Shown: positions 864 through 35,649 of the stretch, piece by piece
How the letters are laid out: each line of letters starts with the position of its first letter
Position numbering within the stretch: the stretch's first letter is position 1
Virus record (IMG/VR): IMGVR_UViG_3300009130_001834
Coordinates: 1 to 35,649 of that record
From: a virus
Length of the DNA stretch: 35,649 nt
Direction: 5' to 3' (one strand)
The notes under the pieces: generated by a model
The model's database searches: none
Told to the model about the DNA's origin: nothing
The model's input: the letters and a program-made list of their open reading frames with translations, nothing else
Translations under genes and position numbers: made by a program

Positions 864-881
864 AACCCAAATAAAAAATTA

Positions 882-1051: not shown

Positions 1052-1056
1052 TTAAT

Positions 1057-1074
1057 AAAAACAAATTGTTATGA
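1057..1074 (+). repeat. Leader repeat, copy 2 (18 nt)
   Basis: This is an exact second copy of the 18-nt leader and start-codon sequence at 882-899, here placed over the groES start codon. Confidence 0.6.
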
Positions 1075-9788: not shown

Positions 9789-9789
9789 T

Positions 9790-11573: not shown

Positions 11574-11581
11574 TTAAAAGT

Positions 11582-14160: not shown

Positions 14161-14190
14161 TTTGGATTCTCTAGACATTTTTTATATATT
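14161..14190 (+). promoter_or_regulatory. Bacteroidota-type promoter inside the glycan locus (TTTG-N20-TATATT)
   Basis: TTTGGAT at 14161-14167 is followed by TATATT at 14185-14190, with 20 nt between TTTG and TATATT, exactly as in other copies in this window. Six C follow (14191-14196), then the ATG at 14199, so the leader would be very short or absent. The unit from 14199 on would start here, splitting the glycan locus in two transcription units. Confidence 0.6.
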
Positions 14191-14198
14191 CCCCCCAT

Positions 14199-15823: not shown

Positions 15824-16460
15824 TTTTACATTCAACCATTATAAAGATACCTTACATTTAGCTTTAAATAAAAAATATAAATTCTTAAAGTGTGAACAGT
15901 ATAATTTAATAAAAGAGTATGATAAAGTAATTATCATGAGGCATGATATTGATTTTTCTTTAGATAATGCTTTAAAATTTGCTCAAATTGAAAATAAATT
16001 AGGCATTTCTTCAACATATTTTATTAGATTACATTCTAAATATTATAATTCTCTAGAGTATAATTCTTATAATATTATTAAATCTATTCAAGATTTAGGT
16101 CATGAAATAGGGTTACACCAAGAACCAGATTTTTCTTCATTATCTTCTAACCCAAATAAGTATTTAAAACAAGAAATTAAAGCTTTTAATTTATTATTTC
16201 AAACTCAAATTAAAGGAATTTCTACTCATGAACCTTTAAGAACTGGTATACAAATCATCCCACAAAATATTTCAGAGTTTAATTTGGAATATGAAAGTTA
16301 TTTCCCTATATTTACTCAACAAATGAAATATATATCAGATTCAGGAGCAAGATGGAGAGAAGGAGATATGTTTGAATGGATTAAAAAGGATAAAGATAAA
16401 TTATACATATTAACTCATCCCTTTTGGTGGTATGATAAAACCCCTCTAGAAAATTATTAA
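15816..16460 (+). CDS. Polysaccharide deacetylase-like protein
   Basis: RHDIDFS at residues 42-48 is the first NodB motif (two aspartates), and GHEIGLHQ at 95-102 gives the histidines H96 and H101 of the metal site. The order and spacing match polysaccharide deacetylase-like proteins of the kind found in O-antigen loci. ISTHEPLRTG (about 133-142) and ILTHPFWWYD (about 194-203) look like the further catalytic strands. The enzyme would remove N-acetyl groups from a sugar, freeing an amine that could be formylated by the next gene product. The substrate is inferred from position. The length of 214 residues fits a single NodB-like domain. Confidence 0.72.
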   Translation: MSNFTFNHYKDTLHLALNKKYKFLKCEQYNLIKEYDKVIIMRHDIDFSLDNALKFAQIENKLGISSTYFIRLHSKYYNSLEYNSYNIIKSIQDLGHEIGLHQEPDFSSLSSNPNKYLKQEIKAFNLLFQTQIKGISTHEPLRTGIQIIPQNISEFNLEYESYFPIFTQQMKYISDSGARWREGDMFEWIKKDKDKLYILTHPFWWYDKTPLENY

Positions 16461-16463
16461 ATT

Positions 16464-17375
16464 ATGAAACAAATAGCATTTTTAAATTGTATCGAATCAG
16501 GTTATGAATTATTAACCCATTTATTAGAAAATAATATACAAATTAATTACATAATTTCTTTAACACCTGATCAAGCAAAAAAATTTAAAGTATCAGGATA
16601 TAAAGACTTTTCAGATATTTCTAAAAAGTATAATATCCCAATTTATTACCCTGAAAAATATAATTTAAGTGGAGAAAAAGATATAGAGTTTTTTAAATCT
16701 AATAATTTTGATTTAATGATGGTGTTTGGATGGCAAAGGCTAGTTCCTGATAATATTATTAAATCTTTAAATATAGGAGCACTAGGGGCACATGGTAGTT
16801 CTGAGTTTTTACCTAAAGGTAGGGGAAGATCTCCTATTAATTGGTCATTAATAGAAAATAAAAACAAATTTATTCTACATATATTTTATTTAGACCCTGG
16901 GGCAGATTCAGGAGATATAATTGACTTTATGGAATTTGATTTAAATAAATGGGATACTTGTAAAACGGCTTATTATAAAGTTCAAATATGTTTAAGAAAA
17001 ATGTTACTTAAAAATTTACCTTTAATATTTGAAAATAAAGTAAAAGTTATAAAACAAGATCATTCTAAAGCTACTTATTATCCTAAACGTACTCCAAAAG
17101 ATGGGATTATAAAATGGAATAAACCCACAAATGAAATATATAATCTAATCAGAGCAGTCACCAAACCTTACCCAGGAGCTTTTACTCCTAATAAAAAAGT
17201 TATGATTTGGAAATCTCAACCTTTTGATAGCAAGATATCTTACTTTGATAGTAAAGAAGGAGAAATAATTGAAATTTTTGATGATAAAAGCTTTGTAGTT
17301 AAAACTATAGACAGTTCCTTATATATAACTGAATATGAAAGCCCAGTTTTATTAAAAATAGGAGATATATTATGA
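16464..17375 (+). CDS. Sugar formyltransferase, methionyl-tRNA formyltransferase/ArnA-like
   Basis: The 303-residue protein matches formyl_trans: [17 protein letters not shown] (83-99), [20 protein letters not shown] (108-127) with catalytic H110, and DPGADSGDI (144-152) with D148. The asparagine two residues before H110 in Fmt is glycine here (G108), as in some sugar-acting relatives. The C-terminal part has [19 protein letters not shown], typical of the ArnA/Fmt C domain. It transfers formyl from 10-formyl-THF to an amine of a nucleotide-linked amino sugar. It overlaps the acyltransferase gene by 4 nt, which supports a role in amino-sugar tailoring. tRNA as substrate is unlikely in this locus. 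Confidence 0.82.
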
Positions 17376-17833
17376 ATTATTTTAAACATAAAACATCAAT
17401 AATTGATGAAGGATCAACTATAGGAGAAGGAACTAAAATATGGGCATTTAGCCATGTAAGTAAAGGAGCAATTATAGGTAAAAATTGTGTAATAGGAGAG
17501 GGGGTTCATATAGGACCTAATGTAATTATAGGAAATAATTGCAAAATTCAAAACCATAGTTTACTATATGAGGGAGTTACTTTAGAAGATGATGTATTTT
17601 TAGGACCCAATACAATAACTACAAATGATTTATATCCTAAAGCTCAAGGTGAGTGGAAAAGAGAAAATTTTAAAAAAACATTATTTAAAAAGGGATGTTC
17701 AATAGGGGCAAACAGCACAATAATTTGTGGTGTAATAATAGGTGAAAACACATTAATTGGAGCAGGAAGTGTAATAACTAAGAACATACAGGATAATTCA
17801 AAAGCATTTGGAAACCCTGCAAAAATAAAATAA
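17372..17833 (+). CDS. Hexapeptide-repeat sugar N-acyltransferase, WbpD/FdtC-like
   Basis: The 153-residue protein is a left-handed beta helix with repeats such as [30 protein letters not shown] and [28 protein letters not shown] (about 70-84) and [14 protein letters not shown] (about 109-122) resemble the catalytic loop of WbpD and FdtC, which N-acetylate 3-amino sugars on nucleotide carriers. With the Gfo/Idh dehydrogenase at 19032 and the aminotransferase at 20969 it makes a set like the UDP-2,3-diacetamido-sugar pathway. It is shorter than WbpD (about 191 residues) and has no C-terminal extension. It acts in the cytoplasm as a trimer by family. Confidence 0.85.
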
Positions 17834-17834
17834 T

Positions 17835-18467
17835 ATGGTAAAGGTATACGGCTATTATAGAAGTGGGAATAACTTCCTTATTCAAAGTTTAATTAAAAAT
17901 TTTAAATTTGAAAATATTGAAACAAAAATCAATTCAGCTAAGGAATATGAAAGATTTAAAAAAACTTTTCATTTTGATTCTTTACTTTTAAATAACTTAA
18001 CTCCTACTCCAATTTCTTCTAATATTTGGATTCATCCTTATGGGAATTTAATAGGGGGGCACCAAAAAGCTAATTTTGACCCCACTGGAATATATATTAT
18101 AAGAAATCCCCGAGATGTTATGTTATCTTGGTGGAAACTAAAAGGTAACCAAGAAAAATTTGAAAATTGGTGTTCTTTAAAACAATTAGATTTATGGAAA
18201 GACCATACTAATCACCATTTAGAAAAAAATTTTTTTTACATAAAATATGAAGATTTAAAAGTAAATTTCCAACAAACTATGAAAAAAATTTCAACCCATT
18301 TTAATCTTTTACCTATATCTAACCCTTATTTGACTTTAGATAATCTAGTGGGATGGAGCCCACCACAAGGAAAATTAGAGGGTAAAACTAGGAAAAGTAA
18401 GGATTTTAGTGATAGTTTAAATAAAAGGTTTGAACCCTTTGTTCAATTTTATAATAAAATAAAATAA
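17835..18467 (+). CDS. Sulfotransferase family protein (PAPS-dependent), second copy
   Basis: The 210-residue protein has YYRSGNNFLIQSLI (7-20), the PAPS-binding P-loop-like turn of Sulfotransfer_1 type, and YIIRNPRDVMLSWW (87-100), the 3'-phosphate site. FFYIKYEDLK (about 136-145) is the later conserved 'ikYEDL' segment, and the tail GWSPPQGKLEGKTRKSKDF has a GKTRKSKDF stretch close to the family's 'RKGxxGdW' end. It differs clearly from the sulfotransferase at 5218. It likely sulfates a glycan made by this locus. Only 1 nt separates it from the acyltransferase gene. Confidence 0.8.
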   Translation: MVKVYGYYRSGNNFLIQSLIKNFKFENIETKINSAKEYERFKKTFHFDSLLLNNLTPTPISSNIWIHPYGNLIGGHQKANFDPTGIYIIRNPRDVMLSWWKLKGNQEKFENWCSLKQLDLWKDHTNHHLEKNFFYIKYEDLKVNFQQTMKKISTHFNLLPISNPYLTLDNLVGWSPPQGKLEGKTRKSKDFSDSLNKRFEPFVQFYNKIK

Positions 18468-18469
18468 AT

Positions 18470-19045
18470 ATGTTATATAATAAAATTAGCTTTTGGAAAA
18501 ATAGAAATGATCCTAATAGTGATAATGGAAGAAAAATAGCTTTAGACCACATTAAATTGATAAAACCTTTTATCCCTCCTAATATAAATTTACTTGATTA
18601 TGGGCCGGGAATAGGAAGAATGGTAGATTTATATAAAAACCAAACTTATATAAATTTTTATGATATTTCTCCAACTTATAAAAATAGATTAATTCAAAAA
18701 TGTAAAAATAATAATTTAAAAATTAATAAATACATTATTGATGAGTCTGGGGACATTAAAACTCCTTTTAAAGATAAAGAGTTTGATATTGTGTGTGCTT
18801 TTGAAGTTTTACTTCATTCTCCTGAAAATGAAATTGAAGAAATGATGAATGAATTAGCTAGAATAGGAAAAAAAGTTATAATAACAACTTGGTACCAAGA
18901 TGGAGAGTTAATAAGTAAAGGAAGTTGTTGGACTAGAGACTACAAAAAGTTATTAACAAACAATAATTTAAGTTTAATTAGATGGGAAAAAATAAATTTT
19001 AATAACACACCCCAAATATTTTTTATATATCATGATAAATTATAA
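18470..19045 (+). CDS. Class I SAM-dependent methyltransferase
   Basis: Residues 40-50 read NLLDYGPGIGR, the SAM-binding glycine loop with the first strand. The motif FDIVCAFEVLLHSP (near 103-116) is the acidic fourth strand with the typical 'fevl.H'. The following KKVIITTWYQDG is strand five. The 191-residue length is a single methyltransferase domain. It may methylate a sugar hydroxyl or carboxyl in this locus; the substrate cannot be read. The gene starts 2 nt after the sulfotransferase stop and overlaps the dehydrogenase gene by 14 nt. Confidence 0.82.
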   Translation: MLYNKISFWKNRNDPNSDNGRKIALDHIKLIKPFIPPNINLLDYGPGIGRMVDLYKNQTYINFYDISPTYKNRLIQKCKNNNLKINKYIIDESGDIKTPFKDKEFDIVCAFEVLLHSPENEIEEMMNELARIGKKVIITTWYQDGELISKGSCWTRDYKKLLTNNNLSLIRWEKINFNNTPQIFFIYHDKL

Positions 19046-20042
19046 AACAGGAATAATAGGTTGTGGAGGTATTTTCCCTCGACACATAGAAGCAATTGAA
19101 TTTAATTCTAATTTTGAATTAATATCTTTATGTGATATTCAAGCTTCTTTAGCTAAAAGTTTAGGGAAAAGATATAAAGTACCTTCTTATGCTGATTACA
19201 AAGATATGATAGATGCTGAAGATATAAATTTTGTAGTAATAGCAACACCAAACTCATTACATAAAGAACAAGCAATATATGCTCTTAAAAATGGGTGTGA
19301 TGTATTAATTGAAAAACCTGTAACATTTAATATAGAAGATTTAAATGAAATATTAAAAGTATCCAAAAAAGTAAAACAAAAAGCATATTGCGTTTTACAA
19401 GTAAGATTAAATCCAACAGTATCTTTAACCAAAGAAATATTGAATAAAAATTTACTAGGTACTATTAGGGGATTTTCATTTACCCAAAGATGGCAAAGAC
19501 CCTTAGAATATTTTTCAGGTTGGAGAGGAGAACCTAATGTAGGGGGAGGGATATTATATGAAACGGGAATACATTATCTAGATATCTTACAATTTTTAAT
19601 AGGTAGTCCTAAAGAAATATTATCTACTAAAACATACACCACAAAACATAAAGATGCAATTATTGAAGATACAGTTTATTCTTTAGTTGATTATGGGGAT
19701 TTTGGAGGAACTATTGAATCTACAATAGCTTCAGAACCTCATAATATTGAAAGTTCAATAACTTTAATGGGATCAAATGGGTATATTAAAGTAGGAGGTA
19801 AAGCTCTTAATATAATAGAATCTGCAAACTTTTTAAGCTATGAATCAACAAGACAGTATGAAAACCTTTTAAAACAATATTCATATTCTAAAGACCCAAA
19901 TTCATATGGTTCATATCAGGGATCATGTCCTAACCATCCTGAAGTATATCGAAATTTAGATAAATTTAATTTGGAAGAGACAAAAAACGTTATTACATTT
20001 ATAGAGAACATTTATAAAAAAGCAAATATTAAATATGGATAA
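19032..20042 (+). CDS. Gfo/Idh/MocA family oxidoreductase (WbpB/FdtA-pathway-like sugar dehydrogenase)
   Basis: The 336-residue protein has the N-terminal Rossmann loop GIIGCGGIFPRH (7-18), then FVVIATPNSLHKEQAIYALKNG and the EKP motif at 94-96 (VLIEKPVTF). The C-terminal substrate domain has GGGILYETGIHYLDILQFLIG with its conserved H and D. It would oxidise a sugar (often C3 of a UDP-HexNAc acid) using NAD(P). In WbpB-type pathways this is followed by transamination and N-acetylation, enzymes also present here (20969, 17372). The length fits WbpB (about 316). It overlaps the next gene by 8 nt. Confidence 0.88.
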   Translation: MINYKTGIIGCGGIFPRHIEAIEFNSNFELISLCDIQASLAKSLGKRYKVPSYADYKDMIDAEDINFVVIATPNSLHKEQAIYALKNGCDVLIEKPVTFNIEDLNEILKVSKKVKQKAYCVLQVRLNPTVSLTKEILNKNLLGTIRGFSFTQRWQRPLEYFSGWRGEPNVGGGILYETGIHYLDILQFLIGSPKEILSTKTYTTKHKDAIIEDTVYSLVDYGDFGGTIESTIASEPHNIESSITLMGSNGYIKVGGKALNIIESANFLSYESTRQYENLLKQYSYSKDPNSYGSYQGSCPNHPEVYRNLDKFNLEETKNVITFIENIYKKANIKYG

Positions 20043-20760
20043 CCATGTTATTTTATTAAGATTAAACCAATATTGGGGTAATCAAACCCAGTATGGACAA
20101 TACACTAGAGAACAAATGTACGAGGGAAACCCAAGTTGGTTAGATATAAGATTAGAATGGTTTGATAAATACCTTTTAGAAAATCTAAAAAGCCAAGATG
20201 ATATGAATTTTTGGTGTTTTCTTCTATCAGATCCGGAAACCCCTCTACGTTACAAAAATAGAATTAAGGAATATGAAAAGTTAGGATTTATAAAAGTAGT
20301 AGAAGTGAATGGGGAAGCTGGATTAGGTATGGATGATATAATCTTAGATACCTACAAATCAGTAAGAAAAAATAACAGTAATAAAATCTTTTGTAGTAGA
20401 CTAGATACAGATGATATGGTTGGGCCTTATTGGAATGTTGCTGTAAAAAAATTATTAGGAGAAAATAAAAGAATTTCACTAGAAACTGTACTTTTGTATA
20501 ATTTTCTTTCTAAAGAAACTAAAATAATAAAATTCCATAAGGGTTCTTTTGTATCAACTTTATCAACTTTAGATAATTTTGATAATCCTAGATCTTTTTC
20601 CCATAATGATTCAGGAGCTCTCTCAGTAGATACTGATTACCCTTTAGTTTGTATGGGAATTCATGATAATAATATTACAAATCAAAATTGGTGGCCTGCT
20701 GGTAGACCTTACCCTTTAAACGAAGAAATTTTTAACCAAATGTTTATATTTGATAAATGA
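20035..20760 (+). CDS. Putative rhamnosyltransferase-like glycosyltransferase
   Basis: The 241-residue protein has WLDIRLEWFDKYLLENLKSQ and FWCFLLSDPETPLRYKNRI, as in the putative rhamnosyl transferase family (PF11316). RLDTDDMVGPYW (near 122-133) carries an aspartate cluster fitting the metal site of a GT-A enzyme. Later the segment SHNDSGALSVDTDYPLVCMGIHDNN resembles the acceptor region. The start overlaps the preceding gene by 8 nt, and the end overlaps the next gene by 4 nt. The name reflects the family; the donor sugar is not established. Confidence 0.72.
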   Translation: MDNHVILLRLNQYWGNQTQYGQYTREQMYEGNPSWLDIRLEWFDKYLLENLKSQDDMNFWCFLLSDPETPLRYKNRIKEYEKLGFIKVVEVNGEAGLGMDDIILDTYKSVRKNNSNKIFCSRLDTDDMVGPYWNVAVKKLLGENKRISLETVLLYNFLSKETKIIKFHKGSFVSTLSTLDNFDNPRSFSHNDSGALSVDTDYPLVCMGIHDNNITNQNWWPAGRPYPLNEEIFNQMFIFDK

Positions 20761-20966
20761 TAGATTTAAAATCAACTATAAAAGAACAAGGAAAAATAGT
20801 TACCCAAATAATTCATTTTGTAGGAGGTGAGAAAAGAACCTTTCATGGTATAATTTCCAAAAGTATAAAACAAGGCCAATTTACTAAATTTAAAACTGTG
20901 GATGGATGTATGATTTGTATAAATGATAAAAATGTTTTATGTATTGAAATTTTTGAAGAAAAATAA
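20757..20966 (+). CDS. Hypothetical protein, 69 aa
   Basis: A small beta-rich protein: TIKEQGKIVTQIIHFVGGEKRTFHG, a strand pair around GQFTKFKTVDG, and CINDKNVLCIEIFEE at the end. The pattern suggests a small barrel such as an SH3-like or Sm-like fold, but no family is recognised. It overlaps the rhamnosyltransferase-like gene by 4 nt and precedes the aminotransferase by 2 nt, so it is expressed with them. It may be a phage gene lodged in the glycan locus. Confidence 0.6.
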   Translation: MIDLKSTIKEQGKIVTQIIHFVGGEKRTFHGIISKSIKQGQFTKFKTVDGCMICINDKNVLCIEIFEEK

Positions 20967-20968
20967 AT

Positions 20969-22132
20969 ATGAATATACAATTATTTAAACCAAAATATAG
21001 AACCCAAGAGGTTTTAAATGAAATTGAGGAATGTCTTGAATTAGGGTGGACAGGATTAGGATTTAAAACAACCCAATTTGAAAAAGAATTTAATAAATAC
21101 ACAGGATTCCCCCACTCCCACTTTGTGTCATCAAATACTATAGGTCTTCAAATATCCCTTAAAGTATTAAAAGATATTAATAAATGGGAAGATGAAGATG
21201 AAGTTATAACAACCCCATTAACTTTTGTTTCATCAAACCATTCTATCTTATACAACAACCTCACTCCCGTATTTGCAGATATTGATGACCAACTTTGCTT
21301 AGATCCTGAAAGTGTAAAACAAAGAATAACTAAAAAAACCAAAGCAGTTATGTTTGTAGGGATAGGAGGAAATATAGGACAATATAATAAAATTAAAAAA
21401 ATCTGCGTTGAACATAATTTAAAACTTATTTTAGACGCAGCCCATATGATGGGAACAAAAGCTAAAAAACCTTTCCAAGATATAGGCACTAGTGAATCTC
21501 AAGTAGGGTGGGATGCTGATGTAACAGTATTTAGTTTCCAATCAGTAAAAAACCTCCCCACAGCTGATGGAGGAATGATATGTTTTGAAAATAAAGATTG
21601 TGATATTTTAGCTAGAAAATTATCCTGGTTAGGAATAGATAAGGATACTTTTAGTAGAACCTCCTCTAAAGGAAAATATAAGTGGGATTACAATGTTATA
21701 GATTTAGGGTTAAAAGCCCACGGAAATTCAATTATGGCTTCCATGGGTTTAATAGCATTAAAATATATAGATGAAGATAATTCTTATAGAAGAAAAATTT
21801 GCAATTTATATGATGAGGGGTTAAAAAATCACCCTTTAATTTCCCTTATTCCTCATAATTCTGAATGTCTTTCATCTAGGCACCTTTATCAAATTAGGGT
21901 AAACAATAGAAACCAAGTCATGGAGTTTTTAAATGAAAAAAAGATTTATCCTGGGGTTCATTATAAAGATAATACAGAATATGATTTATACTCTTATGGT
22001 AAGGGTAAATGTCCTAAATCTTCTAAATTAAACAAAGAAATTATATCACTTCCTCTCCATTTATTTCTTACAAATAGAGAAGTTGAATATATTATTAAAA
22101 ACATTAAAAAAGCAGTAGAAAAATGGAATTAG
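20969..22132 (+). CDS. DegT/DnrJ/EryC1/StrS-type sugar aminotransferase
   Basis: The 387-residue PLP enzyme has TTPLTFVSSNHSILYNN (81-97), DAAHMMGT (156-163, the aspartate that binds the PLP ring nitrogen), and FSFQSVKNLPTADGGMI (189-205), where K194 should form the Schiff base. The family transfers an amino group, usually from glutamate, to a keto sugar nucleotide. With the dehydrogenase at 19032 and the acyltransferase at 17372 it fits an amino-sugar pathway such as WbpB-WbpE-WbpD. The length suits the family (about 370). It overlaps the GNAT gene by 10 nt. Confidence 0.92.
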   Translation: MNIQLFKPKYRTQEVLNEIEECLELGWTGLGFKTTQFEKEFNKYTGFPHSHFVSSNTIGLQISLKVLKDINKWEDEDEVITTPLTFVSSNHSILYNNLTPVFADIDDQLCLDPESVKQRITKKTKAVMFVGIGGNIGQYNKIKKICVEHNLKLILDAAHMMGTKAKKPFQDIGTSESQVGWDADVTVFSFQSVKNLPTADGGMICFENKDCDILARKLSWLGIDKDTFSRTSSKGKYKWDYNVIDLGLKAHGNSIMASMGLIALKYIDEDNSYRRKICNLYDEGLKNHPLISLIPHNSECLSSRHLYQIRVNNRNQVMEFLNEKKIYPGVHYKDNTEYDLYSYGKGKCPKSSKLNKEIISLPLHLFLTNREVEYIIKNIKKAVEKWN

Positions 22133-22518
22133 AATTAGTTAATTGTGAAGAAAAATATTGGGAGTTTGTTAGACTCCTTAGAACTAACCCACTAAACCAA
22201 GAAGGATTCTTCAACCCCGCTTCAATAACCCCAAAAGAACAGACAAAATATATGGAAAAACACCAATATAATTATAAAATATGTTTAGCCAATGGGGTCC
22301 CAGCAGGGTATGTAGGGTTTTTAAAGGCAAGAGAAGTTACTTATTGTGTATTACCTGATTTTCATGGAAGAGGTATTGGTAGTTTTATGATAAATTCTTA
22401 TTGTCCTCGATGGGGGAGGGTTGAGGCTAGGGTAAAACCTAATAATATTGCATCCCAAAAAGTATTTGAAAAATTAGGATTTGAAAAACAAATTCTTTAT
22501 ATAAAAAGTTACCAATGA
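22123..22518 (+). CDS. GNAT family N-acetyltransferase
   Basis: The 131-residue protein has VTYCVLPDFHGRGIGSFMIN (about 76-95), the acetyl-CoA pyrophosphate loop (R/Q-x-x-G-x-G/A; here GRGIGS), and a final segment NNIASQKVFEKLGFEKQ typical of RimJ/RimL-like and sugar N-acetyltransferases. The N-terminal half is short with many Trp/Phe. It may acetylate an amino sugar made by the aminotransferase directly upstream, whose end it overlaps by 10 nt. Protein targets cannot be excluded. Confidence 0.82.
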   Translation: MELELVNCEEKYWEFVRLLRTNPLNQEGFFNPASITPKEQTKYMEKHQYNYKICLANGVPAGYVGFLKAREVTYCVLPDFHGRGIGSFMINSYCPRWGRVEARVKPNNIASQKVFEKLGFEKQILYIKSYQ

Positions 22519-22519
22519 T

Positions 22520-23245
22520 ATGAAAAAACTTTTAGTAATAATACCCTTTTATAATGTTGAGGCTCATTTAGAAGAAGCAATTGAAGGAGTCTTACAACAA
22601 ACCTACCAAAATTTTCATTTGGTTTTAATTGATGATGCTTCAACAGATAATTCAAGAAAAATAGCTGAAGAATACAAATCTAATCCAAAAATAGATATAT
22701 TATATAACACAGAAAATAAGGGGTGTTACTACAGTGTTAACAAAGCTTTACTTTCAATGTCAAATCAAGAATGGGATTATTGGCATTACCATGGTGGAGA
22801 TGATGTTTCGGATCTAACTAGATTTGAAAAAATAATGAAATATCTAGAAAATAACCCTAAAGTAATAGGGTGTAAAAGTACGTTTGTTAGAGTTCATTAT
22901 GATACAAAAGAAGTAGATATTTTAGATGGTCAAGCCCATATAGGAACAAGTGAGGGGATTGCTTTTTATTCAAGAGTAGCATTTGACAATTTAGGTTATT
23001 ATGATGATACTAGATTTGGAGGAGATACTGATTACTTTTGGAGATTAGAAGCTTGGATCCATACAAATAAATTAGATTATCAATTAGGAGAACACAAAGA
23101 ATGTTTGTATATTGCTTACTTAAGAAAAACAAATTTAGTTATACAGTATGATTGGACTTATGATAGACCCAGATATTGGCAAAAATCAAAAAATGAAATA
23201 CAAAAAATGATAGCTAATAACAATTTTTATAGAGAAATTTTTTAA
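22520..23245 (+). CDS. Glycosyltransferase family 2
   Basis: The 241-residue protein is a classic GT2: LLVIIPFYNVEAHLEEAIEG, VLQQTYQNFHLVLIDDASTDNS and WHYHGGDDVSDLTRFEKIM, where the aspartates DD at about 94-95 bind the metal-nucleotide. RFGGDTDYFWRLEAW later matches the acceptor-side 'ED..l..R' region. It inverts configuration at the sugar. There is no membrane segment. It starts 1 nt after the GNAT stop. Confidence 0.9.
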   Translation: MKKLLVIIPFYNVEAHLEEAIEGVLQQTYQNFHLVLIDDASTDNSRKIAEEYKSNPKIDILYNTENKGCYYSVNKALLSMSNQEWDYWHYHGGDDVSDLTRFEKIMKYLENNPKVIGCKSTFVRVHYDTKEVDILDGQAHIGTSEGIAFYSRVAFDNLGYYDDTRFGGDTDYFWRLEAWIHTNKLDYQLGEHKECLYIAYLRKTNLVIQYDWTYDRPRYWQKSKNEIQKMIANNNFYREIF

Positions 23246-23257
23246 AAATAAACTAAG

Positions 23258-24304
23258 ATGGAAAACATAACTTTTTGTATACCAAGTAAAAATAATTTAA
23301 GATACTTAAAATCTTCTATAACTAGCATTAAACAAAATTCTACTTTAGATAATGAAATTATAGTTTGGGTAGATCAAGATAATGATGGAACTGAAAAATG
23401 GTTAAAAGAAAACAAAATTCAATATCTTACTAATCCTGAAAGTGAACCTCAAGGTATAGCAGCCGGATATAACCGATGTATAGAAGCAGCTTCAAATGAA
23501 ATAGTTTGTATGTTTCATGCTGATATGTTTATGGGTAAAGGATTTGATATTAATTTAATCAAACATTTAAAACCTAAAAAAGTAATCTCAGGTACTAGAA
23601 TAGAACCCCCACTACACCCACCAGGAAAAGAAAAAATAATAATGGATTTTGGAATGTATCCTGAGGATTTTAAAGAGGAAGAATTTAATGTTTTTGTAAA
23701 TCAGGTTAAAGAAGAACAGAAAGACCAAATCACCCATGGTATATTTGCCCCTTGGGCTTGTTATAAGAATGAAATATTAGAAATTGGAATGCATGATGAA
23801 GAATTTCATTCATATCATGAAGATTCAGATATATTCAACAGGTTTATTTTAAGTGGAATGGAATTAGTTCAAAGTAGAGATGCTTTAGTTTACCATTTAA
23901 CTTGTAGGGGAGGGAAATGGATTGATGGGATAGAACAAGTAACTACTGATACAAAGTTCCATGATATGACAATAAGAGCTAGAAACCATTATCTTAAAAA
24001 ATGGGGGTGTTGGATTAAAAATAATGAATATCAACATCCCATATTAAGTCCTGTTTATAGAAAAAAATTAATTATATCTAATCCAAACTCTAACCTAAAT
24101 CAATTACAGGATTGGTTTAATGGGGGAGAAGATATTATAGTAGAAATTGATGGTAATAATTTTAACCAACAAGATTTTCAAGTTTTACAACAACTAAATG
24201 ATATTATTAAAGATAGTGGGGAAATAGGCACTTTTGAATTAGGAAATATTAAAATTAAGATTAATTCTTTAAATGAATATCAAAATAATTTAATAAAAAC
24301 TTGA
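23258..24304 (+). CDS. Glycosyltransferase family 2-like with C-terminal extension
   Basis: The 348-residue protein opens NITFCIPSKNNLRYLKSSI with VDQDNDGTEKWL, and has the donor site CMFHADMFMGKGFD (about 88-101). HSYHEDSDIFNRFILSG (about 188-204) is the acceptor-side acidic segment of GT2 enzymes. The last 80 residues (from SNPNSNLNQLQDWFNGGED) add an unfamiliar beta-rich part, which may aid binding. It ends the glycan locus; its stop overlaps the -33 box of the promoter that drives the following small genes. Confidence 0.82.
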   Translation: MENITFCIPSKNNLRYLKSSITSIKQNSTLDNEIIVWVDQDNDGTEKWLKENKIQYLTNPESEPQGIAAGYNRCIEAASNEIVCMFHADMFMGKGFDINLIKHLKPKKVISGTRIEPPLHPPGKEKIIMDFGMYPEDFKEEEFNVFVNQVKEEQKDQITHGIFAPWACYKNEILEIGMHDEEFHSYHEDSDIFNRFILSGMELVQSRDALVYHLTCRGGKWIDGIEQVTTDTKFHDMTIRARNHYLKKWGCWIKNNEYQHPILSPVYRKKLIISNPNSNLNQLQDWFNGGEDIIVEIDGNNFNQQDFQVLQQLNDIIKDSGEIGTFELGNIKIKINSLNEYQNNLIKT

Positions 24305-25175: not shown

Positions 25176-25823
25176 ATGCCTGCTGCTAAACCCATAAGTA
25201 AAGAAATGTGTTTAGCTGCTATGAATAAAACTAAATCAGTTAAGGCAGCAGCTAGATACCTAAATTGCTCATACCACCATTTGAAGCGTTATATGAAGCT
25301 TTATACTGATGAGGAAACTGGTAAGACTTTATTTGAAAAGCATAAAAACCAACAAGGTAAAGGTATTCCAAAATTCTTAAGATCAAGTGGGAAAGAACCC
25401 GCTTTATTAGATATAATAGAGGGTAGAATAGATGCCTCATCCTTCTCCCCAGATAAATTAAAGTATAGATTAACATCAGAGGGATATTTAGAAGAATGTT
25501 GTAGTAATTGTGGGTTTGAAGAACATAGAATAACAGACCATAAAGTACCTTTAATATTAAATTTTAGGGATAAAAATAAACTAAATTACAATTTAAATAA
25601 TATTGAATTTTTATGTTATAATTGTTATTTCTTATTCATAGGAGAAGTATTTTCTAAAAGAGACATCAAAAAACTTGAAGATAATATATCAGTAACAAAA
25701 ACTACAGATGCTGTAGATATGCAACTAGATGACTACCATTTGCAAAGGTTACGTGAGTTAGGGTTAGATGGTGAAAACCCCATAGACGATAATGACCCTT
25801 ACAATCTTGTTTCCTATAAGTAA
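25176..25823 (+). CDS. HNH-like zinc-finger protein with N-terminal helix-turn-helix
   Basis: The first 45 residues contain a helix-turn-helix-like segment (SVKAAARYLNCSYHHLKRYMK). Cysteine pairs CSNC (109-112) and CYNC (147-150) flank TDHKVPLILNFRDKNKLNYNLNNIEFLC, which is the arrangement of HNH nucleases, with H122 as a possible catalytic residue and N142/N141 as the middle N. It lacks a clear last H, so nuclease activity is uncertain. T4-like phages carry conserved relatives of this kind. It could be a transcription or recombination factor. Confidence 0.65.
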   Translation: MPAAKPISKEMCLAAMNKTKSVKAAARYLNCSYHHLKRYMKLYTDEETGKTLFEKHKNQQGKGIPKFLRSSGKEPALLDIIEGRIDASSFSPDKLKYRLTSEGYLEECCSNCGFEEHRITDHKVPLILNFRDKNKLNYNLNNIEFLCYNCYFLFIGEVFSKRDIKKLEDNISVTKTTDAVDMQLDDYHLQRLRELGLDGENPIDDNDPYNLVSYK

Positions 25824-29045: not shown

Positions 29046-29273
29046 ATGGCAAGAGAAAAATCATATCTATACCCAACAGTATTAGTATTTAAAACGTCAA
29101 ACCGTTCAAATGCTAAAACTAAAATGAAAGTTTATAAAACTAGAAATGTAGATGAAATAATAGAAGCATTAGAAAATAGCAATCTTCCTGGCGTCCCCCT
29201 AAAAGCTGAAGTATTAAAGTTAGGGGTAGGGGCAAGTATGGTAAAAAAATATAAGGAACAATATAGTTTGTAA
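29046..29273 (+). CDS. Hypothetical protein, 75 aa
   Basis: The protein has an N-terminal strand (YLYPTVLVFKTSNRSNAKTK), then a helix with TRNVDEIIEALENSNLPG, followed by VPLKAEVLKLGVGASMVKKY. It ends just before the PrkA gene (24 nt gap) and could be part of the same transcript. No family is recognised. It has a basic, compact composition like small phage regulators. Confidence 0.55.
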   Translation: MAREKSYLYPTVLVFKTSNRSNAKTKMKVYKTRNVDEIIEALENSNLPGVPLKAEVLKLGVGASMVKKYKEQYSL

Positions 29274-29297
29274 TATTTATATTAAAATACCCCATCT

Positions 29298-31223
29298 ATG
29301 AGTCTATTAAGTAAGATAAAAAGTGAATACAAGGTTGATAAAAAAGAAACCACAATCCAAAATTATTTAAAAAAATGCTCCTCAGATCCCTCAATGTATG
29401 CTTCTTCCCCCGAAAGGATGTTAAAGGCTATTGGTGATCCTGAAATTATAGATACTAAGGATGATCCAAGACTTAGTAGAATATACCAAAATAAAAAGAT
29501 TAAAGTATATCCCTCATTTAAGGATTTTTATGGAATGGAACAAACAATTGAAAATATTGTTTCATTTTTTAAACACTCGGCTCAGGGATTAGAAGAATCA
29601 AAACAAATATTATATTTAATGGGTCCTGTGGGTTCAGCTAAATCATCATTAGCTGAATGTTTAAAAGGTTTAATTCAAAAAGAACCAATTTATGTTTTAA
29701 AATGTGGTGATGAATTATCACCTGTTTTAGAATCTCCATTAGGGTTATTTTGTGATCATAAAGAAGAATTAGAAGAAGAATATGGAATACCTTCTAGGTA
29801 TGTTCCTAATTGTATGTCTCCTTGGGCTATAAAAAGGCTAAAAGATGTAGGTGGGGATATGTCTAAATTTAAAGTAGTAACTTTAAACCCTTCTATATTA
29901 GATCAAAGAGGTGTTTCCAAAACAGAACCTGGAGATGAAAATAATCAAGATATTTCAACTTTAGTAGGTAAAGTAGACATTAGAAAATTAGGAGACCATT
30001 CCCAAAATGACCCAGATGCATACTCATACTCAGGGGGTTTATGTTTAGGTAATCAGGGTGTTATGGAATTTGTAGAAATGTTTAAAGCCCCCATTAAAGT
30101 ATTACACCCCTTATTAACGGCAACACAAGAAAAAAATTATAAAGGCACCGAACCAATTGGTGCTATTCCTTTCAATGGTATTATTTTAGCTCACTCAAAT
30201 GAAAGCGAATGGGAGAAATTTTCTAATGATAAGAAAAATGAAGCATTTTTAGATAGGGTTTATATGGTAAGAGTACCATATTGTTTAAAAGTAGATGAAG
30301 AAATTAAGATATATGAAAAATTAATAAGAGAAAGTTCATTATCTAAAGCTCCATGTTCCCCTAAAACACTAGATATATTATCTCAGTTTACAGTAATGAG
30401 CCGTTTAGTAGAGCCTCAAAATAGTAAATTAGTTTCTAAGATGAGAGTGTATAATGGAGAAAATTTAAAAGAATTAGACCCAAATGCTAAATCAATCCTA
30501 GAATATAAAGATGACGCAGGGGTAACTGAAGGAATGGAAGGTATTTCAACAAGATTTGCTTTTAAAATATTATCTAAAGTATTTAACTATGATCAAGCTG
30601 AAATATCAGCCAACCCAGTTCATTTGTTATATGTTTTAGAGCAAGAGATTATAAAAACACAATTCCCTAAAGATAAAGAAGATAAATACCTTGATATTAT
30701 TAAATCTGTATTAGCAGTTAAATATGCTGAGTTCATTGGAGATGAAATACAAAAAGCATATATCGATTCATACCATGAATATGGGCAAAATATATTTGAT
30801 AAATACGTTTTACATGCTGATTGTTGGATGAATGATACCGATTATAGAGACCCAGATACGGGGGAAATTTATGATAGGAATTCTTTAAATGAGGAACTAG
30901 AAAAAATTGAAAAAGCAGCAGGCATTGCCAACCCAAAAGATTTTAGAAATGAAGTAGTTAACTTCTTTTTAAGACATAAGGCTAATAACAATGGTAAAGC
31001 TCCTAAATGGACATCTTATAAAAAAATAAAAACAGTAATAGAAAAGAGATTATTCTCTAACACAGAAGATCTATTACCTGTTATTTCTTTTAGTGCTAAA
31101 TCAAGTAAAGATGATAAGAAAAAACATCAAGATTTTGTTAAAAGGCTAGAAGAAAGAGGTTACACCAAGAAACAAGTAGAACTAGTAGTACAATGGTGGA
31201 GTCGTCATAGAAAAAGACAATAA
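29298..31223 (+). CDS. prkA: PrkA/YeaG family AAA+ serine protein kinase
   Basis: The 641-residue protein is near E. coli YeaG (644). It starts with a PrkA N-terminal part (RLSRIYQNKKIKVYPSFKDFYGMEQTIENI) and has a nucleotide site GPVGSAKSSLAECLKG (109-124). Later it has NPSILDQRGVSKTEPGD, the family's conserved segment, and IPFNGIILAHSNESEWEKFSND with the 'aHsNe.Ew..F' motif. The C-terminal PrkA domain follows (SYHEYGQNIFDKYVLHADCW). YeaG forms a complex and autophosphorylates; a protease activity has also been described for PrkA. The glycine before the Walker lysine is Ala here (GSAKS). The neighbours YeaH and SpoVR are the standard partners, so the operon is complete. Confidence 0.93.
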   Translation: MSLLSKIKSEYKVDKKETTIQNYLKKCSSDPSMYASSPERMLKAIGDPEIIDTKDDPRLSRIYQNKKIKVYPSFKDFYGMEQTIENIVSFFKHSAQGLEESKQILYLMGPVGSAKSSLAECLKGLIQKEPIYVLKCGDELSPVLESPLGLFCDHKEELEEEYGIPSRYVPNCMSPWAIKRLKDVGGDMSKFKVVTLNPSILDQRGVSKTEPGDENNQDISTLVGKVDIRKLGDHSQNDPDAYSYSGGLCLGNQGVMEFVEMFKAPIKVLHPLLTATQEKNYKGTEPIGAIPFNGIILAHSNESEWEKFSNDKKNEAFLDRVYMVRVPYCLKVDEEIKIYEKLIRESSLSKAPCSPKTLDILSQFTVMSRLVEPQNSKLVSKMRVYNGENLKELDPNAKSILEYKDDAGVTEGMEGISTRFAFKILSKVFNYDQAEISANPVHLLYVLEQEIIKTQFPKDKEDKYLDIIKSVLAVKYAEFIGDEIQKAYIDSYHEYGQNIFDKYVLHADCWMNDTDYRDPDTGEIYDRNSLNEELEKIEKAAGIANPKDFRNEVVNFFLRHKANNNGKAPKWTSYKKIKTVIEKRLFSNTEDLLPVISFSAKSSKDDKKKHQDFVKRLEERGYTKKQVELVVQWWSRHRKRQ

Positions 31224-31245
31224 CCTCTACCACTTATAAAACAGC

Positions 31246-32517
31246 ATGGGTCACATAATTGACAGGAGAAGAAACTTTAAGGGTAAATCCACTGGTAATA
31301 AGAGGAAGTTTGTTAAAAGAGTTGAGGATAAAATCAGGAAAGCATTACCTAAAACTATATCTGAGGGTAGTATTGAGGATATGGCCACGGGTAAGGGTAA
31401 GGTTAAAGTTCCAATTAAAGGTATTAAGGAACCTAAATTTAAATATGACCATGATACAGGGGATAAAAAATACATCAGTCCTGGAAATGATCAATTTCAA
31501 ACTGGGGATAAGGTAAATAAACCCCCTAAAAATGGAGGTAAAGGTGGGGGCGGAAGACAAGGCAGTAAAGAAGGATTAGGGGAAGATGAATTTTATATTG
31601 AGTTAGATAGAGATGAATTTTTAAAATATTTTTTTGAAAATCTAGAACTACCTGATTTACTTAAAAAAGATTTAGAGGAGTTAGTTGAACATAAACTTAA
31701 AAGAAAGGGGCACACCAAAGATTCAACCCCTTCAAGACTCAACATTACTACATCAGTAAAAAACTCCTTAGCTAGAAAAATAGGAATTAGGTCTGTTTAT
31801 GATAAAAAAATAAAAGAATTAGAAGATAAACTTGAACAAACCACAGATAAAGACATAATAAAAGAATTAGAAGAAGAAATTAAAAAACTTAAATCCTTAA
31901 GAGATTCAATCCCATTTTTAGATGATGTAGATTTAAGGTATAATAACTTTGAAATTGAATCTGAACCTTCAACAAAAGCAGTAATGTTTTGCATAATGGA
32001 TGTCTCAGCCTCAATGGGGGAAAATGAAAAAACCATATCAAAGAAGTTTTTTACATTATTATATATGTTTTTACATAAAAAATATGAAAAAATAGATTTA
32101 GTATTTATTAGACACCATAGTGAAGCAAAAGAGGTAGATGAAGATGAATTTTTCAACTCAAGAGAAAGTGGAGGTACAGTTGTTACTAGTGCTCTAAATT
32201 TAGCTAATAAAATCATAAAAGAAAGATACTCTACTTTAAATTGGAACATTTATGTAACCCAAGCCTCAGACGGGGATGTGTGGGATTATTCAGATGCTTC
32301 TCAATGTTGTGAAATTATAATGAATGATCTACTACCTAACATAAGATATTTTGCGTATTTAGAAATAAGTAGATGGGTAGATAGAAGCAAGTTATTTTCA
32401 TATTATTCTAAAATAGATGAAAAATTTCCTCATTTCTCTTCACAAAAAGTTAGGGATGAAAGTGAAATTTGGCCTGTCTTTCAAAAACTATTTTCAAAAA
32501 ATAAAAAAGATGTCTAA
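31246..32517 (+). CDS. yeaH: YeaH/YhbH family protein (DUF444), VWA-like
   Basis: The 423-residue protein is close in plan to E. coli YeaH (427): HIIDRRRNFKGKSTGNKRKF at the start, a glycine-rich loop (about 96-105), then SVKNSLARKIGIRSVYDKKI. The VWA-like core has CIMDVSASMGENEK (249-262), a MIDAS D-x-S-x-S site at D252, S254 and S256. It continues with IRHHSEAKEVDEDEFFNS, SGGTVVTSALNLA and QASDGDVWDYSDASQCCEI. A coiled coil lies at about 187-222. YeaH works with PrkA/YeaG in stress survival. It starts 22 nt after prkA and overlaps spoVR by 8 nt. I have seen no sign of damage. Confidence 0.93.
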   Translation: MGHIIDRRRNFKGKSTGNKRKFVKRVEDKIRKALPKTISEGSIEDMATGKGKVKVPIKGIKEPKFKYDHDTGDKKYISPGNDQFQTGDKVNKPPKNGGKGGGGRQGSKEGLGEDEFYIELDRDEFLKYFFENLELPDLLKKDLEELVEHKLKRKGHTKDSTPSRLNITTSVKNSLARKIGIRSVYDKKIKELEDKLEQTTDKDIIKELEEEIKKLKSLRDSIPFLDDVDLRYNNFEIESEPSTKAVMFCIMDVSASMGENEKTISKKFFTLLYMFLHKKYEKIDLVFIRHHSEAKEVDEDEFFNSRESGGTVVTSALNLANKIIKERYSTLNWNIYVTQASDGDVWDYSDASQCCEIIMNDLLPNIRYFAYLEISRWVDRSKLFSYYSKIDEKFPHFSSQKVRDESEIWPVFQKLFSKNKKDV

Positions 32518-34036
32518 GTTAAAATCTAAAGAATATTATAGGGATCTTTTTGACAATTCAGAATGGACCTTTGAAACCTTAGAGGCAGCTGATTATTTAT
32601 GTGAAATAATAGCAAAAGAAGAATTAAATATAGACATTTACACAAACCAATATGAAGTAGTAACATCAGAACAATTGCTAGATGCTATGTCTTTAATTGG
32701 ATTACCTATTTCATACCCCCACTGGTCCTTTGGGAAGAATTTCTCACAACAAAAAACAGCATACAAAAAAGGACAAATGGGGTTAAGTTATGAAATGATA
32801 ATTAATTCCAACCCTTGTATTTCTTATAACATGGAGGATAATACTACTTGTTTAATGTTATTAGTTATTGCCCATGCTGGAATGGGGCATAATCATTTCT
32901 TTAAAAATAATTATATGTTTCAGCAATGGACAAATGCTGATACTATTGTTGATTATATGAAATTTGCAAGGGATTATATTATTAAGTGTGAAGAAATTTA
33001 TGGTCCTGAAGAAGTTGAAGATGTGCTAGATGCATGTCATTCAATACAGGATTATGGTGTTGATAAATATAAAAAACCACAAAAATTATCATCAGAAAAA
33101 GAAAAACAAAGATTTTTGGATGCCCTAGAGTTTGAAAGAAAAGATTATGATCCCTTATGGGAAACTATCCCTAATTACAAAAGTAAAAAAATAAAAAGAA
33201 AAAAACATAAAAAAATACCTAACCAACCTGAAGAAAATATTTTGTATTTCATAGAAAAACATTCTCCATCATTACCCACATGGAAAAGAGAAATTGTTAG
33301 AATTTGTAGAAAGGTATCCCAATATTTTTATCCCCAAGCTCAAACTAAAATGATAAATGAAGGTTTTGCTACTTTTTCACATTATTATATTGTTAATAGT
33401 TTATATGATAAAGGATATTTAAGTGAGGGTTTTATGTTAGAATTTATAAAACACCATACAGGAGTAATAACCCAACCACCTTATAACAGCAACTATTACT
33501 CAGGAATTAATCCCTATACTATGGGGTTTAACATTTTTATGGATATAAAAAGAATATGTGAAGATCCAACAGAAGAAGATAAAGAGTGGTTTCCTGAATT
33601 AATAGGTAAGAATTGGAGAGAAGAAATAATATATGCAGCAGCTAATTATAGAGATGATTCATTTATATCTCAATACTTATCTCCTAAAGTAATTAGAGAT
33701 ATGGGACTATTTGAAATATCGGATAAGGAAAATGATTCCAAATTAGAAATATCCTCAATTCATGATGAAATAGGATATAGAAATATAATTGAAACCTTAT
33801 CCAATCAATATAATAGAGAAAGATATCTTCCAGATATTCAAGTAACAGATTATGATAAAACGGGTGATAGAAGTATTGTTTTAACCCACAATAAAAGAAA
33901 CGGAGTTAGATTAGATGAAGATCAAGCTGATGAAGTAGTATATAGTATTTGGCAACTTTGGGGGTATCCAATTTTTTTAATTAGTGAAGATGAAGAAGGT
34001 CGTGTAGATGAATTATCTCATTGTGGAATGATGTAA
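32510..34036 (+). CDS. spoVR: SpoVR family protein (YcgB-like)
   Basis: I choose the ATG at 32510, which gives 508 residues (E. coli YcgB is 510) and overlaps yeaH by 8 nt. Upstream in-frame starts would extend into yeaH. The sequence has EEIAKEELN-like start motifs, SYPHWSFGKNF (68-78), the histidine-rich AHAGMGHNHFFKNN (121-134), YFYPQAQTKMINEGFATFSHY near the middle, and the C-terminal DEDQADEVVYSIWQLWGYPIFL. In Bacillus SpoVR acts in spore cortex formation, and the YcgB role in E. coli is linked to stationary phase. Its chemistry is not known. It completes the PrkA-YeaH-SpoVR module. Confidence 0.92.
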   Translation: MSKLKSKEYYRDLFDNSEWTFETLEAADYLCEIIAKEELNIDIYTNQYEVVTSEQLLDAMSLIGLPISYPHWSFGKNFSQQKTAYKKGQMGLSYEMIINSNPCISYNMEDNTTCLMLLVIAHAGMGHNHFFKNNYMFQQWTNADTIVDYMKFARDYIIKCEEIYGPEEVEDVLDACHSIQDYGVDKYKKPQKLSSEKEKQRFLDALEFERKDYDPLWETIPNYKSKKIKRKKHKKIPNQPEENILYFIEKHSPSLPTWKREIVRICRKVSQYFYPQAQTKMINEGFATFSHYYIVNSLYDKGYLSEGFMLEFIKHHTGVITQPPYNSNYYSGINPYTMGFNIFMDIKRICEDPTEEDKEWFPELIGKNWREEIIYAAANYRDDSFISQYLSPKVIRDMGLFEISDKENDSKLEISSIHDEIGYRNIIETLSNQYNRERYLPDIQVTDYDKTGDRSIVLTHNKRNGVRLDEDQADEVVYSIWQLWGYPIFLISEDEEGRVDELSHCGMM

Positions 34037-34076
34037 TTTACTTCATAATCCCCATATTTATATTATATACATACTT

Positions 34077-35649
34077 ATGGCTACTTATACATTTCATAAT
34101 CCATCTGGATCCTCATACTTTGTTTTAAACCTTATTCCAAGAGAAGATGGAATTTTCCCTTCTTCCTCCGCACAATCTTCTTTTTTATCCCCCATTAAGG
34201 TTTTAGATAATAATACAGTTTCTTTAGTAAAAAATAATTATAAATTGGGGGTAATTGTACCTAGGGGCACCTCATCTTTTTCATTTTATAATGATACAAA
34301 CATCCCAACTTCAGCCTCTACATACCAGGGTACTGGAGACACTTCTTTAACAGTAACTGGGGTAGCAGGATTTGGATCATCGGGTTCATCGCATACTTAT
34401 AGTGCTAAACAATTAAGAGAAAAAACCCCCGCAGCAGATATTCCTAAAAATGATTATTTCCAATTAAAAATCAATATACCCTCAAATGGGTTAGGGTTTG
34501 CTTTAAAATCAAATGGTGCTCCCTCTAGTTATAATGTTGATTGGGGGGATGGAACAATTCAAACAGGGTTAAGCGGGGATAATACCCACACTTATACTAC
34601 TGCAGGGGATTATATAGTTCAATTATCAGCCTCATCCTTTGATTATCCTGATTTTAATGATGGTGGTATAGTAGATATTCAAAATTTTGGAAATCTTGTT
34701 ATTGGACCAACAAACCCCTCTTCTTTACAATATACTTTTCGCCAAGTATCCCCATGGACTATATCAGCTGTTGATACTTTAGATACTTCTCTTGTTAATG
34801 ACATGGATTATACATTTGGAAATAGTTATGGAACTTATGGTCTTTATGGGGATGGTATTGCTTTAAATTTATGGGATACTTCTAATGTGACTAGTATGAG
34901 ATATACTTTTGCTAATTGTAACAATTTCAACATGCCTCTAGGAAATTGGAATACCTCTAATGTAACATTCATGACTGACATGTTTAAAATGTGCTATATA
35001 TTTAACCAACCCATAGGGGATTGGGATGTGTCTAAATGTACTAATTTTTATGAGATGTTTTGGGGAGCTAATATTTTTGACCAAGACTTATCAAGATGGC
35101 ACTTTTCAGGAAGTGGTGATGGGACTGTAAATGTTTCGTGGATGTTTCAAGGACAAAATAATTCCAATCCAAGTTATTTTAATAATGGAGGAAACCCTAA
35201 TATAGATAGTTGGAATGCTGCTGCTTTTAATGATACTACAGGTATGTTTTACGACAACATCGGTTTTAACCAACCTATTGGAAGTTGGGACGTATCAAAT
35301 GTAACGACTATGCAGCAAATGTTTTATAATGCAAAAGCATTTAACCAACCTATTGGAAGTTGGAATATGAGTAATCTTACTGGTAATGATTGTAAACAAT
35401 TATTTTATGGTGCCACTGATTTTAATAATGGGGGTTCACCTAATATAAACAATTGGGATGTATCCAATTTAACAGATTTCACAGGAATGTTCCAAAATTC
35501 CAATTTTAACCAACCTATAGATAAATGGGACATATCCAACGGAACTACTTTCTCCAGTTGGTTAAATGGGACTCCTTTCAATCAAGACATAAGTGCTTGG
35601 AGTGGATCTTTACCAAGTAATAACAGTTTAGCCTATCTATTTTATGGTG
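34077..35649 (+). CDS. Repeat-rich surface/adhesin-like protein (BspA/DUF285 type), 3' truncated
   Basis: The frame opens at 34077 (MATYTFHNPSGSSYFVLNL) and remains open to the window end for 524 codons. A segment from about residue 155 (YNVDWGDGTIQTG, then HTYTTAGDYIVQLS) is a PKD-like or surface-protein module. From about residue 270 a BspA-like (DUF285) array starts. Its unit carries W(D/N)xSNVTxMxxMF and FNQPIGSW; examples are LWDTSNVTSMRYTF and NWNTSNVTFMTDMF. Such repeats occur in bacterial lipoproteins and some phage or virus adhesins. No signal peptide is seen at the start, so export as a classical lipoprotein is unlikely; a virion fibre or decoration protein fits better. The 40 nt before it hold no clear promoter. 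Confidence 0.72.
   Translation, partial: MATYTFHNPSGSSYFVLNLIPREDGIFPSSSAQSSFLSPIKVLDNNTVSLVKNNYKLGVIVPRGTSSFSFYNDTNIPTSASTYQGTGDTSLTVTGVAGFGSSGSSHTYSAKQLREKTPAADIPKNDYFQLKINIPSNGLGFALKSNGAPSSYNVDWGDGTIQTGLSGDNTHTYTTAGDYIVQLSASSFDYPDFNDGGIVDIQNFGNLVIGPTNPSSLQYTFRQVSPWTISAVDTLDTSLVNDMDYTFGNSYGTYGLYGDGIALNLWDTSNVTSMRYTFANCNNFNMPLGNWNTSNVTFMTDMFKMCYIFNQPIGDWDVSKCTNFYEMFWGANIFDQDLSRWHFSGSGDGTVNVSWMFQGQNNSNPSYFNNGGNPNIDSWNAAAFNDTTGMFYDNIGFNQPIGSWDVSNVTTMQQMFYNAKAFNQPIGSWNMSNLTGNDCKQLFYGATDFNNGGSPNINNWDVSNLTDFTGMFQNSNFNQPIDKWDISNGTTFSSWLNGTPFNQDISAWSGSLPSNNSLAYLFYG
35265..35363 (+). repeat. Exact 24-nt direct repeat, 75-nt period, within the DUF285-like array
   Basis: The bases at 35265-35288 recur exactly at 35340-35363, coding for FNQPIGSW. 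The offset is 75 nt, i.e. 25 codons, which is the length of one protein repeat unit. Identity at DNA level suggests recent duplication or gene conversion in an otherwise diverged array. Confidence 0.85.

Follow-up and report, generated by a model that had tools for sequence, protein, structure and literature searches.

What would a phage gain from a bacterial operon for PrkA, YeaH and SpoVR, widely conserved stress proteins the mechanism of which is poorly understood? This question is raised by the IMG/VR virus record IMGVR_UViG_3300009130_001834, a linear fragment of 35,649 bases from a virus of marine bacteria that was analyzed in its entirety (hereinafter, the window) and that carries adjacent homologs of prkA, yeaH and spoVR (hereinafter, the trio) at positions 29298 to 34036. 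With moderate confidence, we propose that the trio is a functional operon of the bacterial type, carried as a cassette by a T4-type phage, that would provide an ATP-driven remodeling machine acting late in infection with, or on, SpoVR.

An intact three-gene operon in a T4-type phage

The first gene of the trio, a prkA/yeaG homolog (29298..31223, plus strand), encodes a 641 amino acid (aa) AAA+ ATPase with a PrkA C-terminal domain; the second, a yeaH/DUF444 homolog (31246..32517, plus strand), a 423 aa protein of the von Willebrand factor type A (vWA) type with MIDAS-type residues; and the third, a spoVR/ycgB homolog (32510..34036, plus strand, with the likely start ATG at 32510), a 508 aa protein. 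The genes are adjacent, on one strand and in the bacterial order, an arrangement shared with most of the viral and bacterial loci; the yeaH stop and the spoVR start overlap by 8 nucleotides (nt), as they do in two relatives of the window, L002 and L004. The Pfam scores of all three proteins are far above the cut-offs: PrkA (PF08298, 551 bits, and PF06798, 224 bits; cut-off 25 each) and YeaH (PF04285, 500 bits, residues 3-418) are matched over the full length, and SpoVR matches PF04293 (506 bits) and PF24755 (SpoVR_C, 59 bits). The Walker A motif of PrkA is GPVGSAKSS, and the equivalents of K116, R232 and K426, which are needed for the function of Escherichia coli YeaG (PMC4664914), are all conserved; in YeaH, the MIDAS-type residues D252/S254/S256, T311 and D342 are invariant. 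No sign of decay is apparent in any of the three genes, all of which are intact and full-length. The preliminary description of this DNA, made from the sequence alone, had reported three adjacent full-length genes of these sizes, and the open reading frames (ORFs), Pfam matches and key residues bear it out.

The contig is a piece of a T4-type phage related to Flavobacterium phage immuto, with a parent genome of probably about 160 kilobases (kb). The T4-like identity had been proposed at the outset and holds: both T4-type clamp loader subunits are encoded within the window, and the Gp23 capsid, portal and tail sheath genes are present in collinear relatives, the window being a fragment that excludes the capsid gene. 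These relatives were collected with the gene at 25176-25823 as the query, which yielded 65 related viral contigs; the T4-type Gp23 capsid gene was detected in 7 of the 47 lineage contigs tested, and genes for the portal, the tail sheath and the tape measure protein were identified in G355, a near-complete contig of the lineage (160,544 bases). The capsid, portal and sheath genes of the relatives were used because Terminase_6N gave no match above the cut-off in the window or its nearest contigs. The closest cultured phage, immuto, shows 58% identity in the capsid protein (measured on G355), 57.5% in GroEL and 44% in the exonuclease (the window GroEL is about 50% identical to those of Bacteroides phages), and differs in having no PrkA match. 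Given that the nearest cultured relative infects Flavobacterium, the host of the window phage is probably a member of Bacteroidota.

An accessory cassette under purifying selection

Comparison with the relatives shows that the trio is an accessory cassette. L004 has the same gene order around the trio as the window, and L002 and L003 carry the trio at another spot within the same lineage; the latter two have identical nucleotide sequences in the aligned portions of the trio and therefore represent one phage sampled twice. Three contigs obtained from separate samples and representing two distinct relatives have the trio embedded among the same phage genes. In L172, L169 and L174, the site is empty, with the DUF285 gene that lies to the right of the trio in the window directly following the gene at 29046, and the left junction, CAATATAGTTTGTAATATTTATAT, is identical in the window, L004 and the empty-site contig L172. 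The motif ATATTTATA borders the cassette on both sides (29273..29281 and 34054..34062, both on the plus strand). Among the 47 other lineage contigs, six of which are 130-173 kb long, none has PrkA above the cut-off.

Pairwise ratios of nonsynonymous to synonymous substitution rates (dN/dS, Nei-Gojobori method) for the window, L004 and L002 are 0.06-0.10 for PrkA, 0.07-0.13 for YeaH and 0.08-0.10 for SpoVR, that is, the phage-carried copies of the trio are under strong purifying selection. Because the compared copies all sit in phages of one lineage, this constraint most likely acted in phages. The intact state of the genes had been taken earlier to argue for selection, and the dN/dS values now add to that argument. 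These observations also bear on the possibility that the trio is a passive passenger, a contaminant or an assembly artefact. Its accessory distribution fits such an origin, and so does the record of Enterobacter phage LAU1 (MN688132.1, 1-3308; L163), which contains, at its very end, enterobacterial-type yeaG and yeaH without spoVR and looks like a case of host flanking DNA kept in a phage record. Against it stand the arrangement common to two distinct phages (three separately sampled contigs), the dN/dS of 0.06-0.13, the phage-type motif upstream of the trio and the several phage clades in the PrkA tree (see below), so that we consider this explanation exceedingly improbable; chimerism and host contamination, in particular, are ruled out by L002/L003 and L004. 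The concerns raised in the preliminary description, that the contig could be chimeric or the trio a chance acquisition confined to one host genus under relaxed selection, are allayed by these relatives, the strong constraint and the copies in many other phages.

The gene to the left of the cassette (29046..29273, plus strand; 75 aa) is a phage gene with no assigned function that adjoins the DUF285 gene where the trio is absent. The right flanking gene (34077..35648, plus strand), which runs off the contig, encodes DUF285 (PF03382, 208 bits) and PKD repeats, and its product may be a surface or tail-type protein. Where present, the trio always directly precedes the DUF285/PKD gene; the left neighbor of the latter varies, being either the 29046 or the 26275 gene, among L002, L169, L172, L174 and L177-L179. 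Further upstream (8349-24304), the window contains many glycosyltransferase, aminotransferase, formyltransferase-like and acetyltransferase genes, and the content of this region varies among the relatives.

A putative late promoter upstream of the trio

The two copies of ATATTTATA in the window are located 24 nt upstream of prkA and 22 nt upstream of the DUF285 gene. The motif is not enriched in the window overall (2 copies vs 4.9 expected by chance); both copies, nevertheless, stand 22-24 nt before a start codon, and ATATTTATA precedes PrkA in the window, L004 and L002. The most enriched upstream 8-mer of the lineage is ATATTTAT. In G355, TATTTATA occurs 69 times; 33 of these occurrences, all on one strand, are located 8-60 nt upstream of ORFs, compared with 4.3% of positions. 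Ten motif-preceded G355 genes were scanned; these include the portal, tail sheath, tape measure, head-tail adaptor and tail fiber genes, and four have no match. We read ATATTTATA as a candidate late promoter element, and given that the trio lies behind this motif, which precedes the portal, sheath and tape measure genes of the near-complete relative, the trio is probably a late gene set of the phage. In another, marine group of T4-like phages, CTAAATA is enriched upstream of genes and precedes PrkA in all 5 loci read; in bacteria, it is found before PrkA in 1 of 78 loci. A late promoter common to all phage trios was considered and rejected, such a motif being clear only in the window lineage and in this marine group.

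In the related T4-type phages L168-L207, another motif, TCGTATATT, shows about 9-fold enrichment upstream of genes and a strong bias to one strand (93 vs 6 copies, counted for TCGTATAT), and possibly represents a second promoter class.

The trio in other phages

A close PrkA homolog was detected in at least 139 IMG/VR contigs. Of the 80 such contigs that were fetched, 67 encode the complete trio with order and strand conserved, and many of the remaining loci are interrupted by the end of the contig. Of 50 PrkA-bearing contigs tested, 10, including contigs of 323-348 kb, have a Gp23 match that exceeds the cut-off. The same three families are represented in the uncultured phages LR745206, LR756502 and LR756504 (635-642 kb; PrkA 62-66% identical), which belong to another phage type than the window. 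In LR756502.1 (642 kb), the trio is split (273831-277130 and 519950-521413), with SpoVR about 240 kb away from PrkA-YeaH. Automatic ORF calls contain internal stops in SpoVR of L016 and L087 and in YeaH of L027, L050 and L058; these could reflect frameshifts, sequencing errors, wrong start choice or real decay.

Among cultured phages, the Thermus phages phiYS40, phiLo, MN1 and Lalka8 encode PrkA, vWA and SpoVR-type proteins together. These differ from the trio of the window in the divergence of the proteins (25-30% identity for PrkA) and in the gene order, vWA-SpoVR-PrkA; as the HAxxGH and NEG motifs are not cleanly conserved in their SpoVR, its equivalence is based on annotation and weak similarity. 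The gene list of the Ralstonia jumbo phage RsoM2USA, a different phage with a different host, includes SpoVR (ORF28) and PrkA (ORF30), one ORF apart (PMC8504454), and spoVR is given as the most abundant sporulation-type gene in a marine virome (PMC8940887); the available parts of these two reports do not discuss the trio as a unit. Hence the preliminary statement that no role of the trio in phages had been described stands for the literature searched, whereas the genes themselves had already been listed in RsoM2USA and the Thermus phages. In the window, a known operon has a new carrier, and its status as an intact, selected phage module is well supported. Because relatives of this operon occur in many unrelated large phages, viruses seem to make repeated use of this bacterial machine.

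The gene neighborhoods in these phages are relevant to the possibility that the trio is a virion morphogenesis factor, an AAA+/vWA chaperone for head or tail proteins. The trio is located between the head genes and TerL in Lalka8 and beside TerL in phiYS40, whereas in a marine group its neighbors are tape-measure-like and PAAR genes; the late-type motif is common to the trio and the structural genes. Such a chaperone would act alongside the phage Hsp20, GroES and GroEL, which are encoded together in the window (394-3057), upstream of the trio, as are both clamp loader subunits and the exonuclease. However, related phages that have these structural genes are assembled without any trio, and the bacterial orthologs act without any virion, which makes this role very unlikely in our assessment.

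Ancestry and cellular copies

The window belongs to a clade of the PrkA tree (support 100) that is the sister group of the few Cytophagales copies (99), and the two are lodged inside a group that includes the huge phages (99). Phages form several clusters, and the starred branches of the tree force at least five changes between phage and cell labels; this tree, with its limited cellular sampling and very long outgroup branch, does not orient the transfer. The window also falls within a mixed group of phages and Cytophagales in the SpoVR and YeaH trees. The search across viral contigs and the trees that had been suggested as a check recovered numerous viral homologs, several phage clusters and a Cytophagales sister group. 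Recent capture from a single sampled host is unsupported, considering that the nearest cellular copies are 72% identical and that at least five label changes are required.

The bacterial prkA-vWA-spoVR operon, as represented in Rhizobium etli, consists of the same three families in the same order, with tight spacing and conserved key residues; in E. coli, yeaGH are together and ycgB is elsewhere. The phage trio differs from the bacterial operon in having a phage-type motif upstream, presumably in place of control by bacterial starvation signals (RpoN/NtrC, ppGpp or RpoS), and the gap between PrkA and YeaH is shorter in viral loci (median 12 vs 82.5 bases in bacterial ones). The operon is present in few of the sampled Bacteroidota: PrkA was found in 1 of 296 genomes, the seed itself.

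These comparisons help to assess the proposal, made in the preliminary description, that the trio is a starvation-state controller. In this reading, PrkA, as a regulatory kinase or protease, would push the host into a stationary-type program and enable infection of starved cells, similarly to YeaG in nitrogen-starved E. coli. Residues of both YeaG domains are needed during nitrogen starvation in E. coli (PMC4664914), and their equivalents are retained in the window PrkA; in R. etli, the same three-gene operon starts with prkA, which is the most (p)ppGpp-induced gene of that operon (PMC3188799); and in another phage group, the trio lies beside PhoH. Conversely, purified PrkA of Bacillus anthracis showed negligible kinase and protease activity in a 2026 study (PMC13001217), the trio of the window follows a late-type motif, and this host may lack the regulatory targets that the trio has in bacteria, given that most of the sampled Bacteroidota are without the trio. 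A controller of this kind is possible but unproven, and we regard it as rather unlikely; the late-type motif, together with the rarity of the trio among the sampled Bacteroidota, points, instead, to a late-stage machine brought in by the phage rather than to a boost of a host pathway.

Structural models

The model of PrkA (predicted local distance difference test score, pLDDT, 81) is closest to NorQ (Z 12.9) and CbbQ (Z 11.9), two MoxR-type AAA+ proteins that act with vWA partners (NorQD, CbbQO), with sigma54 activators reaching 11.7, and we favor the assignment of PrkA to MoxR-type AAA+ proteins. NorQD drives metal insertion (PMC13036017). The resemblance consists in the pairing of an AAA+ protein with a vWA protein, NorQ being the nearest structural neighbor of the PrkA model; the differences are that membership is not seen at the sequence level, that NorQD acts on nitric oxide reductase and that this system has no counterpart of SpoVR. 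For YeaH, comparison with solved structures gave only a chance-level match. The suggestion that PrkA acts here as a kinase or protease appears doubtful in view of the MoxR-like model and the negligible activities of the purified B. anthracis protein; a kinase as the main activity was not adopted, the published activities being in conflict and the fold comparison covering mainly residues 72-474.

The SpoVR model (pLDDT 82) is closest to zinc peptidases, mainly M1 aminopeptidases, followed by M3 and M4 and also M61, which rank above other folds; rows 1-24 of the VIA-align comparison are zinc peptidases or their relatives (Z 8.6-11), except for one hydrolase of unassigned fold. Sequence search detected no relatives of SpoVR with solved structures, and Pfam gave no M1 match. 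The VIAHAxxGHN and NEG(F/W)A stretches of SpoVR resemble the VIAHExxH and NEGFA sites of M1. Profile comparison of SpoVR with M1 aligns NEG(F/W)A with a score of 35.4, compared with at most 22.6 for column shuffles and 12.6-21.5 for the other two trio proteins; this best alignment has a stated probability of only 28% and thus lends weak support, and VIAHAxxGHN is aligned to M1 only in a much weaker alternative. Because alanine replaces the catalytic glutamate, we do not call SpoVR a peptidase. Taken together, the models suggest an AAA+/vWA machine that would act with, or on, a metal-site protein, SpoVR, which may bind metal and may be the client.

SpoVR is named for its role in spore cortex formation in Bacillus, and the likeness of its model to zinc hydrolases could be taken to indicate an action on the cell wall: driven by PrkA and YeaH, SpoVR would modify the wall at a late stage of infection and thereby help lysis timing or particle release. 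The neighborhood of the trio in phiYS40, in MN1 and in the huge-phage group includes peptidoglycan-binding or endolysin-type genes. Nevertheless, Pfam scan of the trio proteins detected neither a signal peptide nor a wall-binding domain, the zincin catalytic glutamate is replaced in SpoVR, and the trio of the window has no cell wall gene next to it, so that an envelope or peptidoglycan module of this kind seems distinctly unlikely.

A proposed role in infection

Under the scenario of a late remodeling machine, the operon was acquired as a cassette, beside a promoter-like repeat, by a T4-type phage that probably infects Bacteroidota, and would be transcribed late from ATATTTATA. The models are consistent with PrkA forming a MoxR-like AAA+ ring that would work with the vWA protein YeaH, as NorQ does with NorD, to remodel or metal-load a target, with SpoVR, of putative zinc-peptidase-like fold, as a third component or client. 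Late in infection, such a module might maintain a host that is slow or starved, or the protein complexes and envelope of that host, in a state that can sustain a prolonged phase of assembly.

Several observations weigh against this scenario. The steps of expression and activity are drawn from a promoter-like motif and from models. Clear late-type motifs are confined to two groups, one of them the window lineage; outside these two groups, the trio is found near PhoH-like phosphate-starvation, thymidylate synthase or dihydrofolate reductase-type genes (L026, L027, L028, L039, L040, L057). The absence of PrkA from the host is deduced from a genome sample and not from the actual host. The fold search with PrkA covered mainly residues 72-474, with the C-terminal third barely included, and the MoxR-type assignment is favored but not proven because Z-score differences smaller than 1 count as ties. 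With Foldseek alone, SpoVR had no significant match, and the invariant HAxxGH, in place of the HExxH of zinc peptidases, makes peptidase activity uncertain.

Strong selection, a late-type phage motif and a host group that is mostly devoid of these genes jointly suggest that the trio does something useful by itself, outside the bacterial starvation network. The phage trio can thus be viewed as a minimal system for finding the target of these proteins, and the likeness of PrkA to NorQ and CbbQ, along with that of SpoVR to zinc peptidases lacking the catalytic glutamate, would provide a concrete, testable mechanism. A broader and more speculative extension, which we consider unlikely at present, is that many unrelated large phages use a MoxR/vWA-like machine and a zincin-like SpoVR late in infection, and that the few Bacteroidota that own the operon obtained it from phages. 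If true, phages would be a main reservoir of this operon and a direct route to the function of SpoVR.

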